From contig CALMFC010000014.1 in NCBI GenBank assembly GCA_937863415.1, positions 1-64,000 of the forward strand: a stretch of 64,000 bases of DNA. The letters are read 5' to 3'. The DNA comes from an uncultured bacterium. GTDB taxonomy: Bacteria > Patescibacteriota > Saccharimonadia > Saccharimonadales > Saccharimonadaceae. Under the pieces are notes generated by a model that was given only the letters and a program-made list of their open reading frames with translations, ran no database searches and was not told the origin of the DNA. Positions within the stretch are counted from its first letter, which is position 1. Each line of letters opens with the position of its first letter. Of the stretch, positions 8,276 to 34,893 are shown in pieces. Both the position numbers and the translations under genes were made by a program.

Positions 8276-11200
8276 ATGGATTTATTAAAAGGATTAAACT
8301 CGGCGCAGGCAGAGGCGGTACAGGTCGCGTCTGGGCCACTTTTGATTTTAGCGGGTGCCGGTAGTGGCAAAACCAAAACTTTGACTCATCGAATCGCTTA
8401 TTTGATTGCGCACGAATCGATTTGGCCAAACGAAATTTTGGCCGTTACCTTTACTAACAAAGCTGCCCGCGAAATGCGCGAACGACTAGGTGTGTTGCTT
8501 GGTCAGGACAGCTCGAGCCGTGGCTTTATGCCCTGGATGGGGACCTTTCATGGTATTTGCGTGCGCTTACTCAGGACGGACGGCGAGGCGATTGGGGTTG
8601 CCAAGAACTTTGTGATTTATGATGAGGATGACAGGCAAGGTCTAGTCAAACAGGCGATGAAGCAACTATCGATAAGCGATAAAGAAATCAAGGCAAGGGC
8701 GGTTAGTAGTCTTATTTCGAACGCCAAAAACGCCATACAATCACCAGATGAGTTTGAGGCATCAGCCCAGTATCCGTATCAGAAAAATATAGCCAAGATT
8801 TACGCGCTGTATGAAAAATTACGCAAACTAGCCGGGGCACTAGATTTCGATGATCTGCTGCTTGAAACAGTTCGACTTTTTCGCGAAAGCAAACAAGTAA
8901 GGGAAAAGTGGCGCGGTCATTTTAAACACATTTTGATTGACGAATATCAGGATACGAACGCCGCACAATATGCCATCATCAAGGCGCTGGTCAATAATGC
9001 GCGTAATATTTGCGTTGTCGGTGATGATTGGCAATGTTTAGTGGGGGGTAGTCAAATTGAGACTGTAGATGGGCATAAACCTATCGAGACTATTAAATCG
9101 GGTGAAATGGTACGAGCTGCTGGTGGTTATGGAGCGACGAACTTTTTTAAGGTAATTGCTAATAAATCTTTTTCGTATGACGGCAAGGTAATAAAAATCA
9201 CTACACGGTCAGGACGGATTATAACCTCAACTCCTAATCATCTTCTTTTTGGTCGGTTTGAAAAAACCACTGATTATTTTGTTTATCTAATGTTCTCACG
9301 AGCCAAAGGTTATCGTATTGGAATAACTAAGGGAACACGTTTTGATGGCAAAAAGGACGACATTGGACTCAGAGTGCGCGCCAACCAAGAACGAGCCGAT
9401 CGAATATGGGTTTTAAAAATTTGCAAGACGCGCCAGGAAGCGGTGTTTCATGAAGCCAGATTATCTTATCAATATGGTATTCCTATGACTGTTTTTAAAG
9501 CGTTAAGTGGTAGTAGCTTACACCTTGACCAGAAACAAATTGATGATTTGTTCGGTCAAATCGACACAAAAAAGCGTGCGCAAACTTTAATGAAAGATTT
9601 AGGCCTATCGTTTGACTATCCTCATTTTTCACCCCAAGCTACAACTAGAAATGGACTCAAACGAGTTAATCTAAATATCGTAATGTTTGGCGATAAACGC
9701 ACTACACTCACTAGCCCTTGGTCAGCAAGTCGTTTATCGATAAATACTAGCAGTAAACAAGACCTGGTTGCTATGAGTGATTTAGGGTATAGTGTTCGTG
9801 CTGCCAAGGCAGGAACGTATCGGTCAGAAATACATAATTTAGATTACGGTAAAATTGAACAAATTTTGGATGAGATTACATCAAAGTCTGAACTAGATAA
9901 CTTACAGGTTCATAAATACGCCTACATTACAGACAAAGCTTACTCATTCATGCCCGCCTCACATATTCATCCCGGTATGATCCTCCCAACTGCTCAGGGT
10001 GCGACCCTGAGAAGTGATCGGGTTGTGAGTGTTGAAGTGTTAGAGCACAAGGGTTTGGTGTATGACCTAGATATCGACAAGGTTCATAATTATATAGCGG
10101 ATGGTGTGGCTGTTCACAATTCTATCTATAGTTGGAGGGGTGCAGATTTTACGAATATTTTGAATTTTGAACGTGATTTTCCTGGGTCTAAAGTTATTAA
10201 ATTGGAGCAAAATTACCGTAGCACTGGTAATATCTTGGACGCGGCCAGTAATGTTATTTCCAAAAACACCCAGCGAACTGATAAAAAATTATGGACGGCC
10301 GAAGGTGCCGGCGCACCTGTTTTGGTACATGGACTATATGATGAGGCTGAGGAAGCACATCTAGTAGCAGAGCGGATTTCAACCCATGTTGCCATGGGCG
10401 CACGTCAGTTTGGTGATTTTGCGGTTCTGTATCGCACCAACGCTCAAAGCTACACGTTAGAACGGGCTTTTATTAGACTGCGTGTCCCCTATCAGATTGT
10501 CGGTGGAGTTAGGTTTTATGATCGTAAGGAGATTAAGGATATAATCGCCTACCTAAGGTTAGTCTATCAACCAAGCGACCGAATGAGCTTTAGCCGGATT
10601 GTAAATGTTCCGACACGTGGAATTGGCGCAACTAGTCTAGAAAAGTTTTTAGCCTGGCAATCGACTAGCGATATGGATATTATTTCGGCGCTAGTTGGTG
10701 CAAATGATGCGGATGGGTTAGTGCCCAAGGCCAAAAAAGCTCTAACAGGATTAGGCTCAAAACTTCGTAAAGTTCAAGACATGGTCGAAACAGCTAGTCC
10801 GTCTGAATTAATCGAGAAAATTCTATCTTTAACAGGGTATCGAGACTATATTTTGGATGGAACGCCGCAGGCCGAAGACCGCGAGGCGAATATAGGGTCG
10901 CTCGTCTCTGACGCTCAATCATTTGCCAGTCTACCTGACTTTTTAGAAGAGGTAGCACTAATGTCCAGTGCCGATACCGACACTAGCGATCAAAAAGTTA
11001 CATTAATGACGCTTCATGCAGCAAAAGGCCTAGAGTTTCCAGTTGTCTTCATGGTTGGAATGGAAGAGGGAATTTTACCTCACGCTCGGGTTTACGAGGC
11101 TGGTCCAGCGGAGTTAGAAGAAGAGCGACGTCTAGCCTATGTCGGCATGACTAGAGCCCGCGAAGAGCTGCACCTGACTTATGCGCAAAGCCGCTTGCAG

Positions 11201-11467
11201 TTTGGTGAACGGGGATATAACGCAATGTCGCGTTTCATCGCAGACATTGGCGAAAGCGCAGCTACAATTAGCGCCAGTGAACCGCACGTCACACCTGACC
11301 AAGATTTCTATAGCGATGAGCCGTTCATGGTTGGCGATAGAATCAGGTCGGCGGCGTTTGGAGAGGGTGAGGTGAGTGACGTTGACGGTCTGGCCCTAAC
11401 TATTCACTTTGATAGTGGTCAAACCAAAAAGCTCAATGCGGAATATGCAAAGTTAGAGAAGCTATAA
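8276..11467 (+). CDS. UvrD/PcrA-type superfamily 1 DNA helicase containing an intein
   Basis: The precursor is 1063 aa. It is a 3'-5' DNA helicase used in repair and replication-fork maintenance. Helicase motifs are LNSAQAEAV (Q motif), GAGSGKTKTL (Walker A), TFTNKAAREMRER (motif Ia), LIDEYQDTN (Walker B), then the split motif III (GDDWQ / SIYSWRGAD), LEQNYRST (motif IV), VTLMTLHAAKGLEF (V) and AYVGMTRAREEL (VI). Residues 254-615 are an intein sitting exactly between Q and S of motif III. Splicing would give a 701-aa enzyme, a normal UvrD/PcrA length. TACAAT at 8263-8268 is 7 nt before ATG with no ribosome site, so a leaderless mRNA is predicted. Whether it is uvrD or pcrA proper cannot be told here. 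Confidence 0.95.
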   Translation: MDLLKGLNSAQAEAVQVASGPLLILAGAGSGKTKTLTHRIAYLIAHESIWPNEILAVTFTNKAAREMRERLGVLLGQDSSSRGFMPWMGTFHGICVRLLRTDGEAIGVAKNFVIYDEDDRQGLVKQAMKQLSISDKEIKARAVSSLISNAKNAIQSPDEFEASAQYPYQKNIAKIYALYEKLRKLAGALDFDDLLLETVRLFRESKQVREKWRGHFKHILIDEYQDTNAAQYAIIKALVNNARNICVVGDDWQCLVGGSQIETVDGHKPIETIKSGEMVRAAGGYGATNFFKVIANKSFSYDGKVIKITTRSGRIITSTPNHLLFGRFEKTTDYFVYLMFSRAKGYRIGITKGTRFDGKKDDIGLRVRANQERADRIWVLKICKTRQEAVFHEARLSYQYGIPMTVFKALSGSSLHLDQKQIDDLFGQIDTKKRAQTLMKDLGLSFDYPHFSPQATTRNGLKRVNLNIVMFGDKRTTLTSPWSASRLSINTSSKQDLVAMSDLGYSVRAAKAGTYRSEIHNLDYGKIEQILDEITSKSELDNLQVHKYAYITDKAYSFMPASHIHPGMILPTAQGATLRSDRVVSVEVLEHKGLVYDLDIDKVHNYIADGVAVHNSIYSWRGADFTNILNFERDFPGSKVIKLEQNYRSTGNILDAASNVISKNTQRTDKKLWTAEGAGAPVLVHGLYDEAEEAHLVAERISTHVAMGARQFGDFAVLYRTNAQSYTLERAFIRLRVPYQIVGGVRFYDRKEIKDIIAYLRLVYQPSDRMSFSRIVNVPTRGIGATSLEKFLAWQSTSDMDIISALVGANDADGLVPKAKKALTGLGSKLRKVQDMVETASPSELIEKILSLTGYRDYILDGTPQAEDREANIGSLVSDAQSFASLPDFLEEVALMSSADTDTSDQKVTLMTLHAAKGLEFPVVFMVGMEEGILPHARVYEAGPAELEEERRLAYVGMTRAREELHLTYAQSRLQFGERGYNAMSRFIADIGESAATISASEPHVTPDQDFYSDEPFMVGDRIRSAAFGEGEVSDVDGLALTIHFDSGQTKKLNAEYAKLEKL
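9035..10120 (+). other. Intein (362 aa) with a GIY-YIG-like insert in helicase motif III
   Basis: The intein begins with Cys254 (CLVGGSQIETVDGHKPIETI, block A) and has TSTPNHLLF (block B with the catalytic His). It ends with GLVYDLDIDKVHNYIADGVAVHN (blocks F and G, terminal His-Asn), followed by Ser616 as the +1 nucleophile. Between the Hint halves, residues 334-405 contain YFVYLMFSRA, GYRIGITKG and a later EAVFHEARLSYQYGIP. These resemble the GIY and YIG elements and downstream Glu of GIY-YIG/T5orf172-type nucleases. No LAGLIDADG or HNH motif is seen. The Hint assignment is firm; the nuclease assignment is tentative. Confidence 0.85.
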
Positions 11468-29079: not shown

Positions 29080-29334
29080 TTGACACAAAATGCAATACTT
29101 GGTAAACTGGTTATCAGCACATTTGTGACTCCGTCTACTAGTGTTTTTCAAACACAAGCGAGTGGGAAGAACGAGCCATAAATGAGCCTACCGATAAATG
29201 TCGTTAAGGGTACCGCAAACTTCGAACTAATATCAATTAATTTCAATGGTCGACACGTACCCCGTTCTATAGCGAGAAGAAAGACAAAGTAAGGTAGACG
29301 CCTCTGTAGCAATACAGGCGGCAGGAGAACGATA
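29080..29334 (+). promoter_or_regulatory. Promoter and 220-nt structured leader of the LysM-CHAP gene
   Basis: TTGACA (29080-29085), a 17-nt spacer and TAAACT (29103-29108) form a promoter starting near 29115. The leader up to 29334 has no ORF and includes a hairpin CGCCTCTGTA-GCAA-TACAGGCG just upstream of the AGGAG at 29323-29327, close enough to affect ribosome access. A c-di-AMP riboswitch, common before such hydrolases, was considered but I cannot find its consensus. Confidence 0.5.
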
Positions 29335-30504
29335 ATTCGTAATCAGATCAATGCGGGCATAGCCCAACGATCAACTGCTGCTATAACCAAGCAGTCAACA
29401 GTCCGTCGCCGTAAGGCAAAGACTGCACTAAAAAGTTCAACAATTGCTATTTATGCTAGTGTTTTTGCCCTCCTTGTAGTCATCGTAGGGCTTGGTTATC
29501 ATGCTCCTGAAAAGGAATCCACAGTTGCTAACGCGACCGCTGTTAACACCTATAACACGACCGACAAGACGTCTGTCGATGACGTCGTTGCTACGACTAT
29601 TGCAGCTGATGTTGCTTCGACGACTAACCTTTCGGTTGCTCCAAATGCTGCTAGCCTAGCTGTTTCAACACAAATTCAGAGCGAGTTGTCTCAACCTAAC
29701 GCTTCAACTATTAGTAAGCCGCAACTAGTTGGTGTTGATAGTGGAGTACGATCTGTTATTAATTACACCGTAGTTGACGGAGACACTATGGATTCGATTG
29801 CTACTAATTTTGGTATTTCTAAACAGACTATTAAGTGGGCTAATAACATGACTTCCGATTCAATAACGGTTGGCTCAGCGCTCAAGATTCCACCAGTTGA
29901 TGGCGTGCTTTACACCGTCAAAGCTGGCGATACAATTGATTCGATTGCTAAAAAGTATGACGTAGACAAGACTCGTTTGGTGCTTTATAACGACCTAGAT
30001 TTAGGTGGCTTGAAGACGGGCGATCAGATTATACTACCTGCCGGAGTGTTACCTAATAACGAACGTCCTGGTTATGTAGCGCCAGTGGTAACTTTCTCGT
30101 CATATGTTGGCCAGGGAACCGGCTTTGGTGGACGCACCTGGTACATCAAGACGGGTACAGCTACTTTGGCTGGAAACACTTACGCACACGGTAACTGTAC
30201 TGCCTATGCATACGATAGGCGCATTGAACTAGGTCTACCTGTTAGTAATCAATGGGGCAACGCTGTAACTTGGGCAGCTCGTGCAGCCAGCGAGGGGCTA
30301 AAAGTTGACCGAACACCTAGCGTCGGAGCTATTATGCAAAACGGTGGTGGATTTGGTCACGTAGCGATCGTAGAAAGCGTGTTGCCAAACGGCGATGTGA
30401 GCGTCAGCGAGATGAACGCCTATGTTGCAGGTGGTGGTTATAACGTCGTATCTGGCCGAATAATCTTGGCGGCTAACGCTGGTCAATATCTATACATACA
30501 CTAG
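29335..30504 (+). CDS. Secreted LysM-CHAP cell-wall hydrolase with atypical start codon
   Basis: The frame is open from a stop at 29290 to 30504. The first ATG or TTG-type starts lie far inside, past the membrane helix, yet the upstream part clearly codes: a basic start (RNQINAGIAQRSTAAITKQS), an RRRKAKT tract and an export helix (about 41-58, IAIYASVFALLVVIVGLGYH). AGGAG at 29323-29327 is 7 nt before ATT (29335) and 4 nt before ATA (29332), so I place the start at ATT, giving 389 aa. Two LysM domains follow (about 138-185 and 195-240, VVDGDTMDSIATNFGIS and VKAGDTIDSIAKKYDVD). A C-terminal CHAP amidase has its Cys in HGNCTAYAYD and His in FGHVAIVE. It should cut peptidoglycan peptides outside the cell. 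Confidence 0.85.
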   Translation: MRNQINAGIAQRSTAAITKQSTVRRRKAKTALKSSTIAIYASVFALLVVIVGLGYHAPEKESTVANATAVNTYNTTDKTSVDDVVATTIAADVASTTNLSVAPNAASLAVSTQIQSELSQPNASTISKPQLVGVDSGVRSVINYTVVDGDTMDSIATNFGISKQTIKWANNMTSDSITVGSALKIPPVDGVLYTVKAGDTIDSIAKKYDVDKTRLVLYNDLDLGGLKTGDQIILPAGVLPNNERPGYVAPVVTFSSYVGQGTGFGGRTWYIKTGTATLAGNTYAHGNCTAYAYDRRIELGLPVSNQWGNAVTWAARAASEGLKVDRTPSVGAIMQNGGGFGHVAIVESVLPNGDVSVSEMNAYVAGGGYNVVSGRIILAANAGQYLYIH

Positions 30505-30556: not shown

Positions 30557-32030
<1,474 letters not shown>

Positions 32031-32043
32031 TTGAATTTTGTTA

Positions 32044-32072
32044 TTGACATAAGCAATAACTTGTGATATTAT
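32044..32072 (+). promoter_or_regulatory. Promoter of structured RNA 1
   Basis: TTGACA (32044-32049), 17-nt spacer, TATTAT (32067-32072). Predicted start near 32080. Confidence 0.65.
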
Positions 32073-32079
32073 ACAAGAA

Positions 32080-32615
32080 CCATTCGGTTGAAACAGTGTT
32101 TCCCGGGTCGGTACATTGACAAGTTGGATATATTTAACATTGCTGTAGCTTTGTGGTTATCAATTTTGGTGATCAGTAAGCTACAGCAATTCCGCTGGGC
32201 ACAAGGTAAAATGCATAACAAACTTTGCATTTTGAATCTACCTCTAACCAGGTAGGGAAAGGGGTCTCATCGATGAGAAGCCCCCCGTGCAACAATACCA
32301 GCAAGACCGATGTCGTTATTTCCCTCGTCGAGCGCGACCGCGCCGGCCACTGAATCGTGGCGGTCATCTTCGGATGGCTGCCATCGCCAGGGCTGAATCG
32401 ACTCTAGAATTGAACGGAGGAATTGTGCATCACTATTTACCCTAGGGGCCTAGCCCCGACTTGAATGTTTCGGTCCGCGCGAGATACAGCGGAGCATTAT
32501 ACGGTTGGTCATACTGGGCTGATCAACCGTATGAGACCGGGGGAGCACACTCCCCCGGTCTCGTTAATCATATATCCAATTTTCACATTAAACACATCTT
32601 TACGGTGTTTTTTTT
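32080..32615 (+). ncRNA. Candidate large structured RNA 1 (about 535 nt)
   Basis: There is no convincing ORF between obgE and the terminator at 32591-32615 (AACAC/GTGTT plus eight T). The segment instead holds a series of strong helices. They include TGCTGTAGCTT with AAGCTACAGCA, AAAATGC/GCATTTT, CTACCT/AGGTAG and GGCCAC/GTGGC. Near the end are ATACGGTTGGTCA with TGATCAACCGTAT and a 13-bp GAGACCGGGGGAG/CTCCCCCGGTCTC hairpin. A GGAGG followed by a six-codon frame (GTG at 32425, stop at 32445) lies inside. I compared it by eye with tmRNA, RNase P, SRP and 6S RNA and found none of their conserved words. The class is unknown. Confidence 0.6.
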
Positions 32616-32624
32616 CATTTGATA

Positions 32625-32653
32625 TTGACATTAATGCATAATAGTGCTATAAT
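32625..32653 (+). promoter_or_regulatory. Promoter of structured RNA 2
   Basis: A perfect TTGACA (32625-32630) and TATAAT (32648-32653) are separated by 17 nt, the strongest consensus promoter in the window. Predicted start near 32660. Confidence 0.8.
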
Positions 32654-32659
32654 GTACAT

Positions 32660-33023
32660 ATGCTTAGGTTGAGAGTACTCGCCAACGCAGGTTAATACTT
32701 GAAAAAATTAAACAGCTAGCAGGCGACACCGAACACCCGAATAGGTGTCGTCTGCTATCAGGTTGGCGTGAGGACACCCCCGTCCTAATGCCAACCACAC
32801 TCGGGGAATCGAACCCCCGTACTAAGGATGAAGCGTTGCTTACCCGCATTTCATCCCTCGGACCTTGTCCGAGAAGTACGATTTCCCCGAGCGAGCGGTG
32901 GTGGCCGAGACAATAGTCAGATGCCGGGCTTAGCACAGCAGCCCCCTGTCTATCTCTGCCGCCACCGCTCACACAATTCTTTCAAATATTAACCCTAACA
33001 CGCCCAAGCGGCGTGTTTTTCTT
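32660..33023 (+). ncRNA. Candidate structured RNA 2 (about 360 nt)
   Basis: It is bounded by a consensus promoter and an intrinsic terminator (AACACGCC/GGCGTGTT plus T-tract, 32997-33023). CGCCAAC near the 5' end pairs with GTTGGCG around 32762, enclosing a 14-bp hairpin TAGCAGGCGACACC/GGTGTCGTCTGCTA. A second domain is closed by CTCGGGGAATCG with CGATTTCCCCGAG and holds two inner hairpins. A third is a roughly 20-bp irregular stem starting GAGCGGTGG with CCACCGCTC. No ORF on the plus strand is credible. It resembles no RNA I know; the word CGGGGGTTCGATTCCCCGA on the opposite strand looks like a T-arm but lacks the rest of a tRNA or tmRNA. Confidence 0.6.
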
Positions 33024-33042
33024 ATACTTTTTATAAGAAGCA

Positions 33043-33071
33043 TTGACATAACAGCTAATCTATGATAGGAT
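33043..33071 (+). promoter_or_regulatory. Promoter of structured RNA 3
   Basis: TTGACA (33043-33048), 17-nt spacer, TAGGAT (33066-33071). Predicted start near 33078. Confidence 0.6.
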
Positions 33072-33077
33072 AATTGC

Positions 33078-33454
33078 AATCCATTACGGTGTTTTCGGAC
33101 GCTATAGTGGAGTTCTTCGATAAGCTGAAATATTACTTATTGTTTAGCTGAATATAGTTAAACAATAAGTAAAGGTAATACCATAGTCCCGACTTCGGTC
33201 GGGTTCGGCGGATGTTCATGCGATAGTCATCCGCCAGAGGCGGGGAACAGTTGGCTCAAAGCTACTGACCCCGCCTCACTAATACCCCTCGCAAGGTAGG
33301 GTTTCCCCCCACCAAACAAATCACGACCCTGCCTTGCGAGGTCTCTTTCAAGAGGGGGCCCGGGAGTTTTAACGTACTCCCGGGCCCGATACCTAACTTT
33401 CCAGCTTATCGTAAATTCAATTTGTTCAATTCACGCCTTTATGGCGTGTTTTTT
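33078..33454 (+). ncRNA. Candidate structured RNA 3 (about 375 nt)
   Basis: A closing helix CGATAAGCTG (33118-33127) with CAGCTTATCG (33402-33411) encloses a row of perfect or near-perfect hairpins. They are TTACTTATTGTTTA with TAAACAATAAGTAA, CCCGAC-TTCG-GTCGGG, GGCGGATG/CATCCGCC and AGGCGGGG/CCCCGCCT. These are followed by CCTCGCAAGGTAGGG with CCCTGCCTTGCGAGG, and GGGCCCGGGAGT/ACTCCCGGGCCC. The intrinsic terminator CACGCC/GGCGTG plus six T follows at 33432-33454. The whole is a multi-helix junction with no ORF. It is not a recognisable housekeeping RNA. Confidence 0.6.
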
Positions 33455-33468
33455 GTTATGCTAGGGGT

Positions 33469-34893
33469 ATGTCCAAAACTTTTTTCTTTTATGACCTCGA
33501 GACATCTGGTCTTAGCGCGCGCGATGCCCGAATCATGCAGTTTGCTGGCATACGAACGGATTTAAACCTTAAGACCATAGGCGACCCAGTTAACGTACTT
33601 GTGAAGCTAAATGACGACACTCTGCCAAGTCCTGAAGCGTTGATGGTAACTGGTATTACGCCGCAACAGACGATAGCCGACGGTATAACAGAGGCCGAAT
33701 TGTCGAAAATGTTAATTGATGGGGTGTTTACACCTGACACTATTGCAGTTGGGTTTAATAATATTCGCTTTGACGATGAGTTTATTCGCCATCTTTTTTG
33801 GCGTAATTTCTATGATCCGTATGAATGGAGCTGGAGTGAAGGGCGGTCACGTTGGGATTTACTAGACGTAGTTCGAATGACCAGGGCGCTTAGGCCAGAT
33901 GGTATAGAGTGGCCGGTGGTTGATGGTAAAGAAGTGAATAGGTTAGAACTAATCGCATCTGAAAACAACATTGCTCACGCCAAAGCTCACGATGCTTTGA
34001 GCGACGTTGAGGCTTTGATTGCTGTAACGAAACTCATTCGTGACAAACAACCACAGCTGTACGAATATCTGTTTAAAATTCGTGACAAGAACGAAGTCAA
34101 AAAACTAGTTAACCTCGATGATAAACAGCCGTTTGTTTATGTTAGTGGGCGATATGCGCCCGAGTTTCACAAGGCGTCGGTGGCGTTTCCGCTGACGTCT
34201 GGTGCTAATAACAATGTGGTAGTGTATGATTTGCGTCACGATCCATCGGATTTGATCGACCTATCGCAAAAAGAGCTGCAAAAACGGATGTATGCCACGT
34301 GGGAGGAGCGTCAGGCCGACGACTACGTTTATGTACCGGTCAAAGAACTGCAGTATAATCGCGCTCCGGCTGTGGCGCCGCTTGGCGTACTCGAGCAAGA
34401 GGATGGTTGGGCCAAGATTGGCCTAGATTTAGCAACAGTCGAGAAGCATAAAAGCATTTTACTAGCCGCGCCTCATTTTGCCGAGAATATTCGCAGTGTT
34501 TTTGAGTCCAAACCTGAATTCAAGCGTTCCTCAGATCCTGAATCGCAGCTATATGATGGTTTTGTTGGAGACCGCGACAAATTGCGAATTGAAACGGTAC
34601 GAAATGCTGACGAAAAGCAACTGGCTGACTTTCATCCAGATTTTAGCGATGAACGTCTGGCGCCATTACTACTACATTACAAAGCGCGTAATTTTCCTAA
34701 AACTCTTAGCCACGAAGAAATGTTGCTATGGGAAACTTGGCGAGCCGAACGAATTCACTCTGCGATGCCTGGCTTTGTTAAATCACTACAAAAAATCGCC
34801 GGTAGCGAGACCGACGAAAACAAACTATTTATTTTGCAAGAATTACAGCTTTGGGCCGAAAGTATCGTGCCAAGCGACCTGGACAATGATTAA
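33469..34893 (+). CDS. sbcB: Exodeoxyribonuclease I
   Basis: The product is 474 aa. It degrades single-stranded DNA 3' to 5'. The DnaQ-type exonuclease domain begins FFFYDLETSGLSARDARIMQ (Exo I, catalytic D and E). It continues with NNIRFDDEFIRHLFW (Exo II) and AKAHDALSDVEALI (Exo III, catalytic H and D). SH3-like and helical extensions follow, with WETWRAERIHSAMPGF near the end. This follows E. coli ExoI in length and order. TATGCT (33457-33462) is 6 nt before the ATG, so a leaderless mRNA is predicted immediately after the terminator of structured RNA 3. The 3' end overlaps the convergent small membrane gene. Confidence 0.93.
   Translation: MSKTFFFYDLETSGLSARDARIMQFAGIRTDLNLKTIGDPVNVLVKLNDDTLPSPEALMVTGITPQQTIADGITEAELSKMLIDGVFTPDTIAVGFNNIRFDDEFIRHLFWRNFYDPYEWSWSEGRSRWDLLDVVRMTRALRPDGIEWPVVDGKEVNRLELIASENNIAHAKAHDALSDVEALIAVTKLIRDKQPQLYEYLFKIRDKNEVKKLVNLDDKQPFVYVSGRYAPEFHKASVAFPLTSGANNNVVVYDLRHDPSDLIDLSQKELQKRMYATWEERQADDYVYVPVKELQYNRAPAVAPLGVLEQEDGWAKIGLDLATVEKHKSILLAAPHFAENIRSVFESKPEFKRSSDPESQLYDGFVGDRDKLRIETVRNADEKQLADFHPDFSDERLAPLLLHYKARNFPKTLSHEEMLLWETWRAERIHSAMPGFVKSLQKIAGSETDENKLFILQELQLWAESIVPSDLDND

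Follow-up and report, generated by a model that had tools for sequence, protein, structure and literature searches.

Structured transcription units between obgE and sbcB in a Saccharimonadales bacterium, and the covarying RNA family that includes the first of them

The window, by which we mean the whole stretch of 64,000 nt that was analysed (contig CALMFC010000014.1, from an uncultured member of the Saccharimonadaceae), carries on its plus strand the gene for the GTPase Obg (obgE, positions 30735–32030, a 431-aa ORF) followed by that for exonuclease I (sbcB, positions 33469–34893, a 474-aa ORF). The interval of ∼1.44 kb between them holds no conserved gene. It contains three consecutive units of promoter, structured region and terminator, all on the plus strand, which are referred to here as RNA1, RNA2 and RNA3.

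The RNA1 promoter (32044–32072, +) reads TTGACA-17-TATTAT with a TG preceding the -10 box and matches 11 of the 12 consensus bases. Taken alone this match is not significant, as 3.6 such matches are expected in shuffles of 2 kb; we count the promoters as significant because the same distance to a conserved 5′ hairpin recurs in relatives. The unit itself (32079–32615, +; 536 nt) has a predicted folding energy of -219.2 kcal/mol, as compared with -157.3 ± 7.4 kcal/mol for dinucleotide shuffles (z = -8.39, reached by 0 of 100). It begins with the hairpin H1 (32079–32112, +), which consists of an outer stem, a 5′ UU bulge and the inner stem GAAAC/GUUUC. This is followed by the 5′ strand of the helix P1, TGACAAGTTGGATATAT (32117–32133, +), predicted to pair with the 3′ strand P1′, ATATATCCAATTTTCA (32570–32585, +), in an end-to-end helix. 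Between the two strands the fold predicts a first arm CATTGCTGTAGC...GCTACAGCAAT of 13 bp and a further 9 bp (32138–32190, +), in which compensated base changes relative to the units at loci L050 and L044 are seen by eye, a 13-bp arm ATACGGTTGGTCA...TGATCAACCGTAT (32499–32532, +), and a last, G+C-rich arm of 13 bp before P1′ (32533–32562, +). The intrinsic terminator AAACAC/GTGTTT with T8 (32590–32615, +) is a modest one (6 bp, a 9-nt loop and 8 T), and it was missed by a consensus scan because of the length of its loop. No Rfam family matches RNA1 at the gathering score and none is credible at E up to 5. Within the obgE-sbcB region there is likewise no Rfam model match for tmRNA, RNase P, SRP or 6S RNA, nor for OLE, ROOL or GOLLD, and an Rfam search of 32000–33480 with E up to 5 yields no hammerhead (core CUGANGA...GAAA).

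RNA2 (32625–33020, +; fold z = -11.9) starts from a perfect promoter (32625–32653) with a predicted transcript from about 32660. It has an H1-like hairpin GGUUGAG..CUC with a UU bulge, a P1 helix (32690–32709 with 32975–32994) and a terminator (32997–33020). RNA3 (33043–33454, +; fold z = -15.1) has its promoter at 33043–33071, a predicted transcript from about 33078, a shorter P1 (33118–33127 with 33402–33411) and a terminator at 33432–33454. The long-range P1 was found by folding in all three units. The family models described below do not detect RNA2 (R2 search) and do not recognise RNA3, which reaches only 8.5 bits to R2. Thus, RNA2 and RNA3 may belong to the family by architecture only, and they may be homologous to RNA1 or merely alike. 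Both strands of RNA2 fold well, and its minus strand contains a T-loop-like GGGGGTTCGATTCCCCG hairpin (32801–32858, -) with a weak match to a tmRNA fragment (14.3 bits against a cut-off of 47). We rejected an antisense reading based on this tRNA-like TTCGATT loop, as promoter and terminator belong to the plus strand and ARAGORN detects nothing.

An earlier sequence-only reading had described RNA1 as a large orphan structured RNA forming a complete transcription unit. Its view of a discrete, heavily structured unit outside the known RNA classes is borne out by the promoter, fold, terminator and Rfam searches given above. It had also held that RNA1 is not the leader of a protein gene, and with regard to sbcB this is supported. 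The helix P1 was absent from that description. The term orphan has to be given up: two more units adjoin RNA1, and relatives occur at the same junction in other genomes and at other loci.

To compare the junction between relatives, 80 named loci were fetched, with tblastn searches using the obgE ORF marking the same junction. sbcB was located in 56 of 60 relatives, and in 51 of the loci obgE lies directly upstream of it. Judged by promoter, fold and P1 together with reading by eye, 25 of these 51 junctions hold at least one unit and 16 have a gap of 18–115 bp; the rest contain other genes or unclear sequence. The obgE-sbcB gap of Saccharimonadales is therefore either nearly empty or filled with one to three units, apart from this remainder. 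A decayed unit is seen at L016 (1382–1501) and L048, where half of an H1 runs straight into a lone P1′ strand followed by a terminator, with no promoter. Comparison of this remnant with L047 indicates that units have been lost at the junction.

The units differ almost everywhere except in H1, with its 5′ UU bulge between the stems, the linker between H1 and P1 (ACAUU or ACUUU), P1 itself (consensus TGACAAGTTGGATA, with the partner strand near the 3′ end) and the presence of arms. The arms are very variable; the last one is usually G+C-rich, and a G-rich last arm is common to most obgE-sbcB units by eye. No consensus structure emerged from an initial MAFFT alignment of 18 leaders, and this was replaced by structure-guided alignments. 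In these, 10 of 14 P1 pairs show compensatory change with 97.8% of cells paired (ten sequences; 0 of 500 shuffles), and 8 of 10 H1 pairs are changed on both sides (26 sequences; the covariation score is reached by 0 of 500 shuffles), although these pair counts lean towards structure, as models and alignments were built stepwise from hits and fitted to it. For H1, 34 sequences from other loci also gave 8 of 10 pairs changed on both sides. Slid controls for H1 are far lower, which argues against the structure-fitted alignment being the whole cause of the signal. Covariation had been named by the sequence-only reading as support for a structured RNA, and it is present in both helices.

Models R1 and then R2, which comprise H1, the linker and the 5′ strand of P1, detect the family at other loci across Saccharimonadales. 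To see whether obgE-sbcB and other-locus units form a single family, model R3, which covers the same elements, was trained on other-locus units only and included no obgE-sbcB copy. R3 detects RNA1 with 36.2 bits (E = 9.2e-9) as well as L035, L103, L056 and L051. It has no match at the obgE-sbcB gap of ∼16 control loci with empty junctions, one of which (L061) is matched weakly (E 0.03) at another place in the locus. As R3 was built off-locus, these matches show that both groups of units form one family. Of the 393 Saccharimonadia genomes, about 45 contain matches with E below 1e-5, and one genome holds as many as 16 copies. A P1 partner 100–1500 nt downstream accompanies 39 of the 49 model matches examined, which at most 3% of shuffles equal. 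Outside the class there are two marginal matches among 287 genomes of a phylum sample, neither with P1, and in the genome of the window the other matches either fall within coding sequence or do not exceed chance. At least five units, several of them hammerhead-ended, lie together at 308–325 kb of one contig (C4; loci L181 and L182) in genome G003, which belongs to the same genus as the window. Based on sequence comparison, we conclude that RNA1 is part of a new RNA family of Saccharimonadales with covarying helices. We found no description of it in the open-access literature.

The ends of the units at other loci follow a common pattern. In 26 of 43 units inspected the -10 box ends 6–10 nt before the first position of the model, and the RNA1 promoter has the same spacing before H1; transcription should therefore start at the foot of H1. 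At the other end, at least 24 off-locus units carry, by core motif, a type III hammerhead (RF00008) directly after P1′, with a stem I hairpin, the CUGANGAG core, stem II, CGAAA and stem III. Stem II varies while its pairing is kept (TCC/GGA, CTC/GAG, CTG/CAG, CCG/CGG). Rfam Hammerhead_3 is found in nearly all of nine off-locus loci, with full-length matches of E 1e-6 to 7e-4, but the scores of 28–45 bits lie under the curated cut-off of 48.5. These hammerheads are predicted to self-cleave. RNA1, RNA2 and RNA3 have no hammerhead, and in the obgE-sbcB copies the terminator occupies its place. In two off-locus units the first arm matches RAGATH-10 (RF03147), above the cut-off in L202 (72.9 bits) and weakly, below it, in L178 (33.5 bits); this model covers an 82-nt piece only and does not match RNA1.

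Most units at other loci contain a Shine-Dalgarno (SD)-preceded ORF of 80–313 aa inside P1. About half of the 25 ORFs with 80 or more codons start within a cluster 111–136 nt inside P1. Fold z-scores of -4.0 to -14.4 mark the whole units as structured, whereas those of the embedded ORFs (0.4 to -2.7) do not. Their products are diverse, and several resemble phage lipoproteins or secreted proteins. Among them are a Band-7 lipoprotein, with phage relatives solely in phages of Mycobacterium, Rhodococcus and Corynebacterium, a secreted-protein family that occurs predominantly, though not exclusively, in actinophages, a lipoprotein with relatives in Vibrio and Synechococcus phages, those of Vibrio being best, a DUF6197 protein and a weakly holin-like protein.

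We consider it moderately probable that RNA1 is a member of a lineage-specific group of end-sealed structured transcripts of Saccharimonadales, most likely a small mRNA in a protective frame. Transcription would begin at the foot of H1, and the long-range helix P1 would clamp both transcript ends. The 3′ end would be made by the terminator in the obgE-sbcB copies and by the hammerhead ribozyme in most copies elsewhere. Variable arms would fill the space between the P1 strands, joined in most off-locus copies, and in many of those at obgE-sbcB, by an ORF or micro-ORF with an SD. The frame would provide defined, nuclease-resistant ends and a long life, with the ORF as its cargo. The evidence read in the DNA covers the family, the covariation of H1 and P1, the promoter spacing, the hammerhead motifs and the ORFs with their codon bias; transcription, ribozyme activity, stability and translation of the units we infer. 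Many family members are thus probably short self-trimming mRNAs rather than purely noncoding. The RtcB gene is absent in 19 of 20 genomes, which makes circularisation by RtcB ligase unlikely.

The ORFs of the off-locus units have an unusual codon usage. In 27 of them mean GC1, GC2 and GC3 are 0.59, 0.44 and 0.73, as compared with 0.59, 0.42 and 0.56 in neighbouring genes; GC3 is higher than in the neighbours in 24 of the 27 and a few show no rise (one apparently frame-shifted ORF, at L204, was left out of a second codon count). High expression in the symbiont was rejected as the cause, as tuf does not share the bias: in 17 such genomes tuf has a GC3 near 0.48 and other codon preferences, and unlike tuf the cargo ORFs prefer GAG, CTG/CTC and AAG. 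Strong local structure was also rejected, as the ORFs are not extra structured relative to dinucleotide shuffles; since such shuffles keep the composition, selection for overall stability could still raise GC3. The raised GC3 is compatible with translation directed to the host, with the codon usage of a donor following transfer, or with selection for stable RNA.

The first of these would mean that the sealed RNAs are mRNAs made for the actinobacterial host, with the frame protecting them outside the cell and the ORFs suited to host ribosomes. The rise of GC3 while GC1 and GC2 stay near those of neighbouring genes, the codons preferred and the likeness of some cargo to actinophage proteins are in agreement with such a delivery. 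On the other hand, AGA and AGG, which together make up 17% of arginine codons, are not avoided, which speaks against host-directed translation, as do the few ORFs without a GC3 rise; one cargo is closest to Vibrio phage proteins, and both other causes would raise GC3 too. We regard delivery to the host as unlikely.

Phage-related cargo also bears on whether the units are mobile or phage-derived cassettes that are explained by their spread, with the frame serving the element, and not by a function in the cell. This would explain why the same junction is sometimes filled and sometimes not (25 of 51 occupied, 16 nearly empty), and would also account for genomes with many copies and the decayed remnant at L016/L048. 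In addition, hammerheads are known to flank single genes in prophages, where the transcripts are ribozyme-trimmed and varying genes lie between the ribozymes (Perreault et al., 2011; PMC3088659). These transcripts are the nearest precedent to the ribozyme-trimmed single-gene units described here, although the units have their own promoter, a conserved 5′ hairpin and the end-to-end helix, and their inspected neighbours look chromosomal by eye. No integrase or transposase was noticed beside the units inspected, where neighbours were judged by eye, and no convincing copy was present in the viral contigs tested: a P1 18-mer matched four viral contigs in which the architecture is missing, and a gapped pattern gave 80 listed viral matches with no convincing model match. 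As each copy also has its own promoter and the copies differ almost everywhere except in H1 and P1, we find a purely mobile element unlikely. That P1 is merely the terminal inverted repeat of a DNA element, with incidental RNA structure, is highly improbable. Its strands are indeed inverted repeats bounding variable DNA, but promoter and H1 lie outside P1 and are conserved along with it, the internal arms are helical too, the units fold with z of -4 to -15, and a ribozyme follows P1′ in many copies.

Small ORFs are also seen in the obgE-sbcB units. SD-preceded ATG codons number 19 on the sense strand and 3 on the antisense strand, as compared with 3.2 (maximum 8) in mononucleotide shuffles; some of the 19 represent a single start counted in more than one overlapping SD register. 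The peptide M-x(1-4)-S-G-F, followed by 0–3 residues, is encoded by nine micro-ORFs with an SD, where 0.01 are expected. Eight of these SGF(T) micro-ORFs are in obgE-sbcB units (L050, L051, L056, L088, L094, L044 and L071) and one is in L192. The serine is written both TCN and AGY, so that the peptide is what is kept, and a conserved ultrashort peptide is possible. Related units at L072 and L073 have a similar 43-codon ORF with codon-sized length differences; in L072 about 95% of its third positions are G or C.

In RNA1 a possible SD, GGGAAAGGGG (32255–32264, +), lies 8 nt upstream of the ATG at 32273 of a candidate 26-codon ORF, MRSPPCNNTSKTDVVISLVERDRAGH (32273–32353, +). This ORF starts 139 nt inside P1, adjoining the modal offset of the other members. 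Its GC3 is 20/25 (p = 0.009 against 0.55, uncorrected and for one sequence), and the SD is about 65% paired in the predicted ensemble. Alone this is weak and only suggestive of a gene. RNA1 may make only a 26-residue peptide, or this copy may no longer have its ORF. The statement of the sequence-only reading that RNA1 has no credible gene is consequently in doubt, given an SD-preceded ORF where relatives carry ORFs. Its picture of a large noncoding RNA could hold at best for some copies, perhaps RNA3, and does not suit the several obgE-sbcB copies with SD-preceded micro-ORFs.

A noncoding reading would make RNA1–RNA3 structural or regulatory RNAs whose arms bind protein or RNA, the ORF-bearing copies being a derived use. 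RNA3 lacks an SD-preceded ORF and that of RNA2 is poor, the obgE-sbcB copies consist largely of very strongly folded arms, and the position between obgE and sbcB is retained though cargo-like ORFs are absent or tiny. Against this stand the enrichment of SD-preceded starts on the sense strand and the retention of the SGF motif at the peptide level with synonymous serine codons. The arm sequences are unconserved, which is difficult to reconcile with binding to one fixed partner. We see a noncoding role as possible but doubtful.

OLE, ROOL, GOLLD and other large ornate bacterial RNAs resemble RNA1 in size range and helix density. The analogy to OLE and ROOL drawn from the sequence is not supported, as relatives of RNA1 away from this junction are for the most part protein-coding transcripts ending in a hammerhead ribozyme. 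Obelisk-type viroid-like RNAs are about 1 kb long and highly structured, and have an ORF and in some cases a type III hammerhead; the units described here differ in being DNA-encoded, with bacterial promoters and terminators and a branched rather than rod-like fold. If the mRNA reading is true, the family would extend the known bacterial transcripts by a new type, a small mRNA embedded in a conserved, covarying RNA frame that ties its own two ends together, in many cases with hammerhead trimming, and carries exchangeable cargo. The family gives a chromosomal setting to the bacterial hammerhead and to RAGATH-10, which were fragments without a clear role. In ultrasmall bacteria living on Actinobacteria, it also makes testable whether long-lived RNAs act in their maker or reach the host.

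Elsewhere in the window, a lysM-TM7 RNA (RF03005, 102.7 bits; 29186–29327, +), a cis-regulatory RNA already known from this lineage, lies upstream of a LysM/CHAP-like ORF (29686–30504). A UvrD/PcrA-like helicase ORF (8276–11467, +) contains, by sequence reading, an apparent intein with a GIY-YIG-like segment. At 2498–2756 a partial 5′ copy of tRNA-Glu is located upstream of the intact tRNA-Glu (2682–2756), and integration of an element at this tRNA gene may account for the G+C-rich first 2.4 kb of the window.
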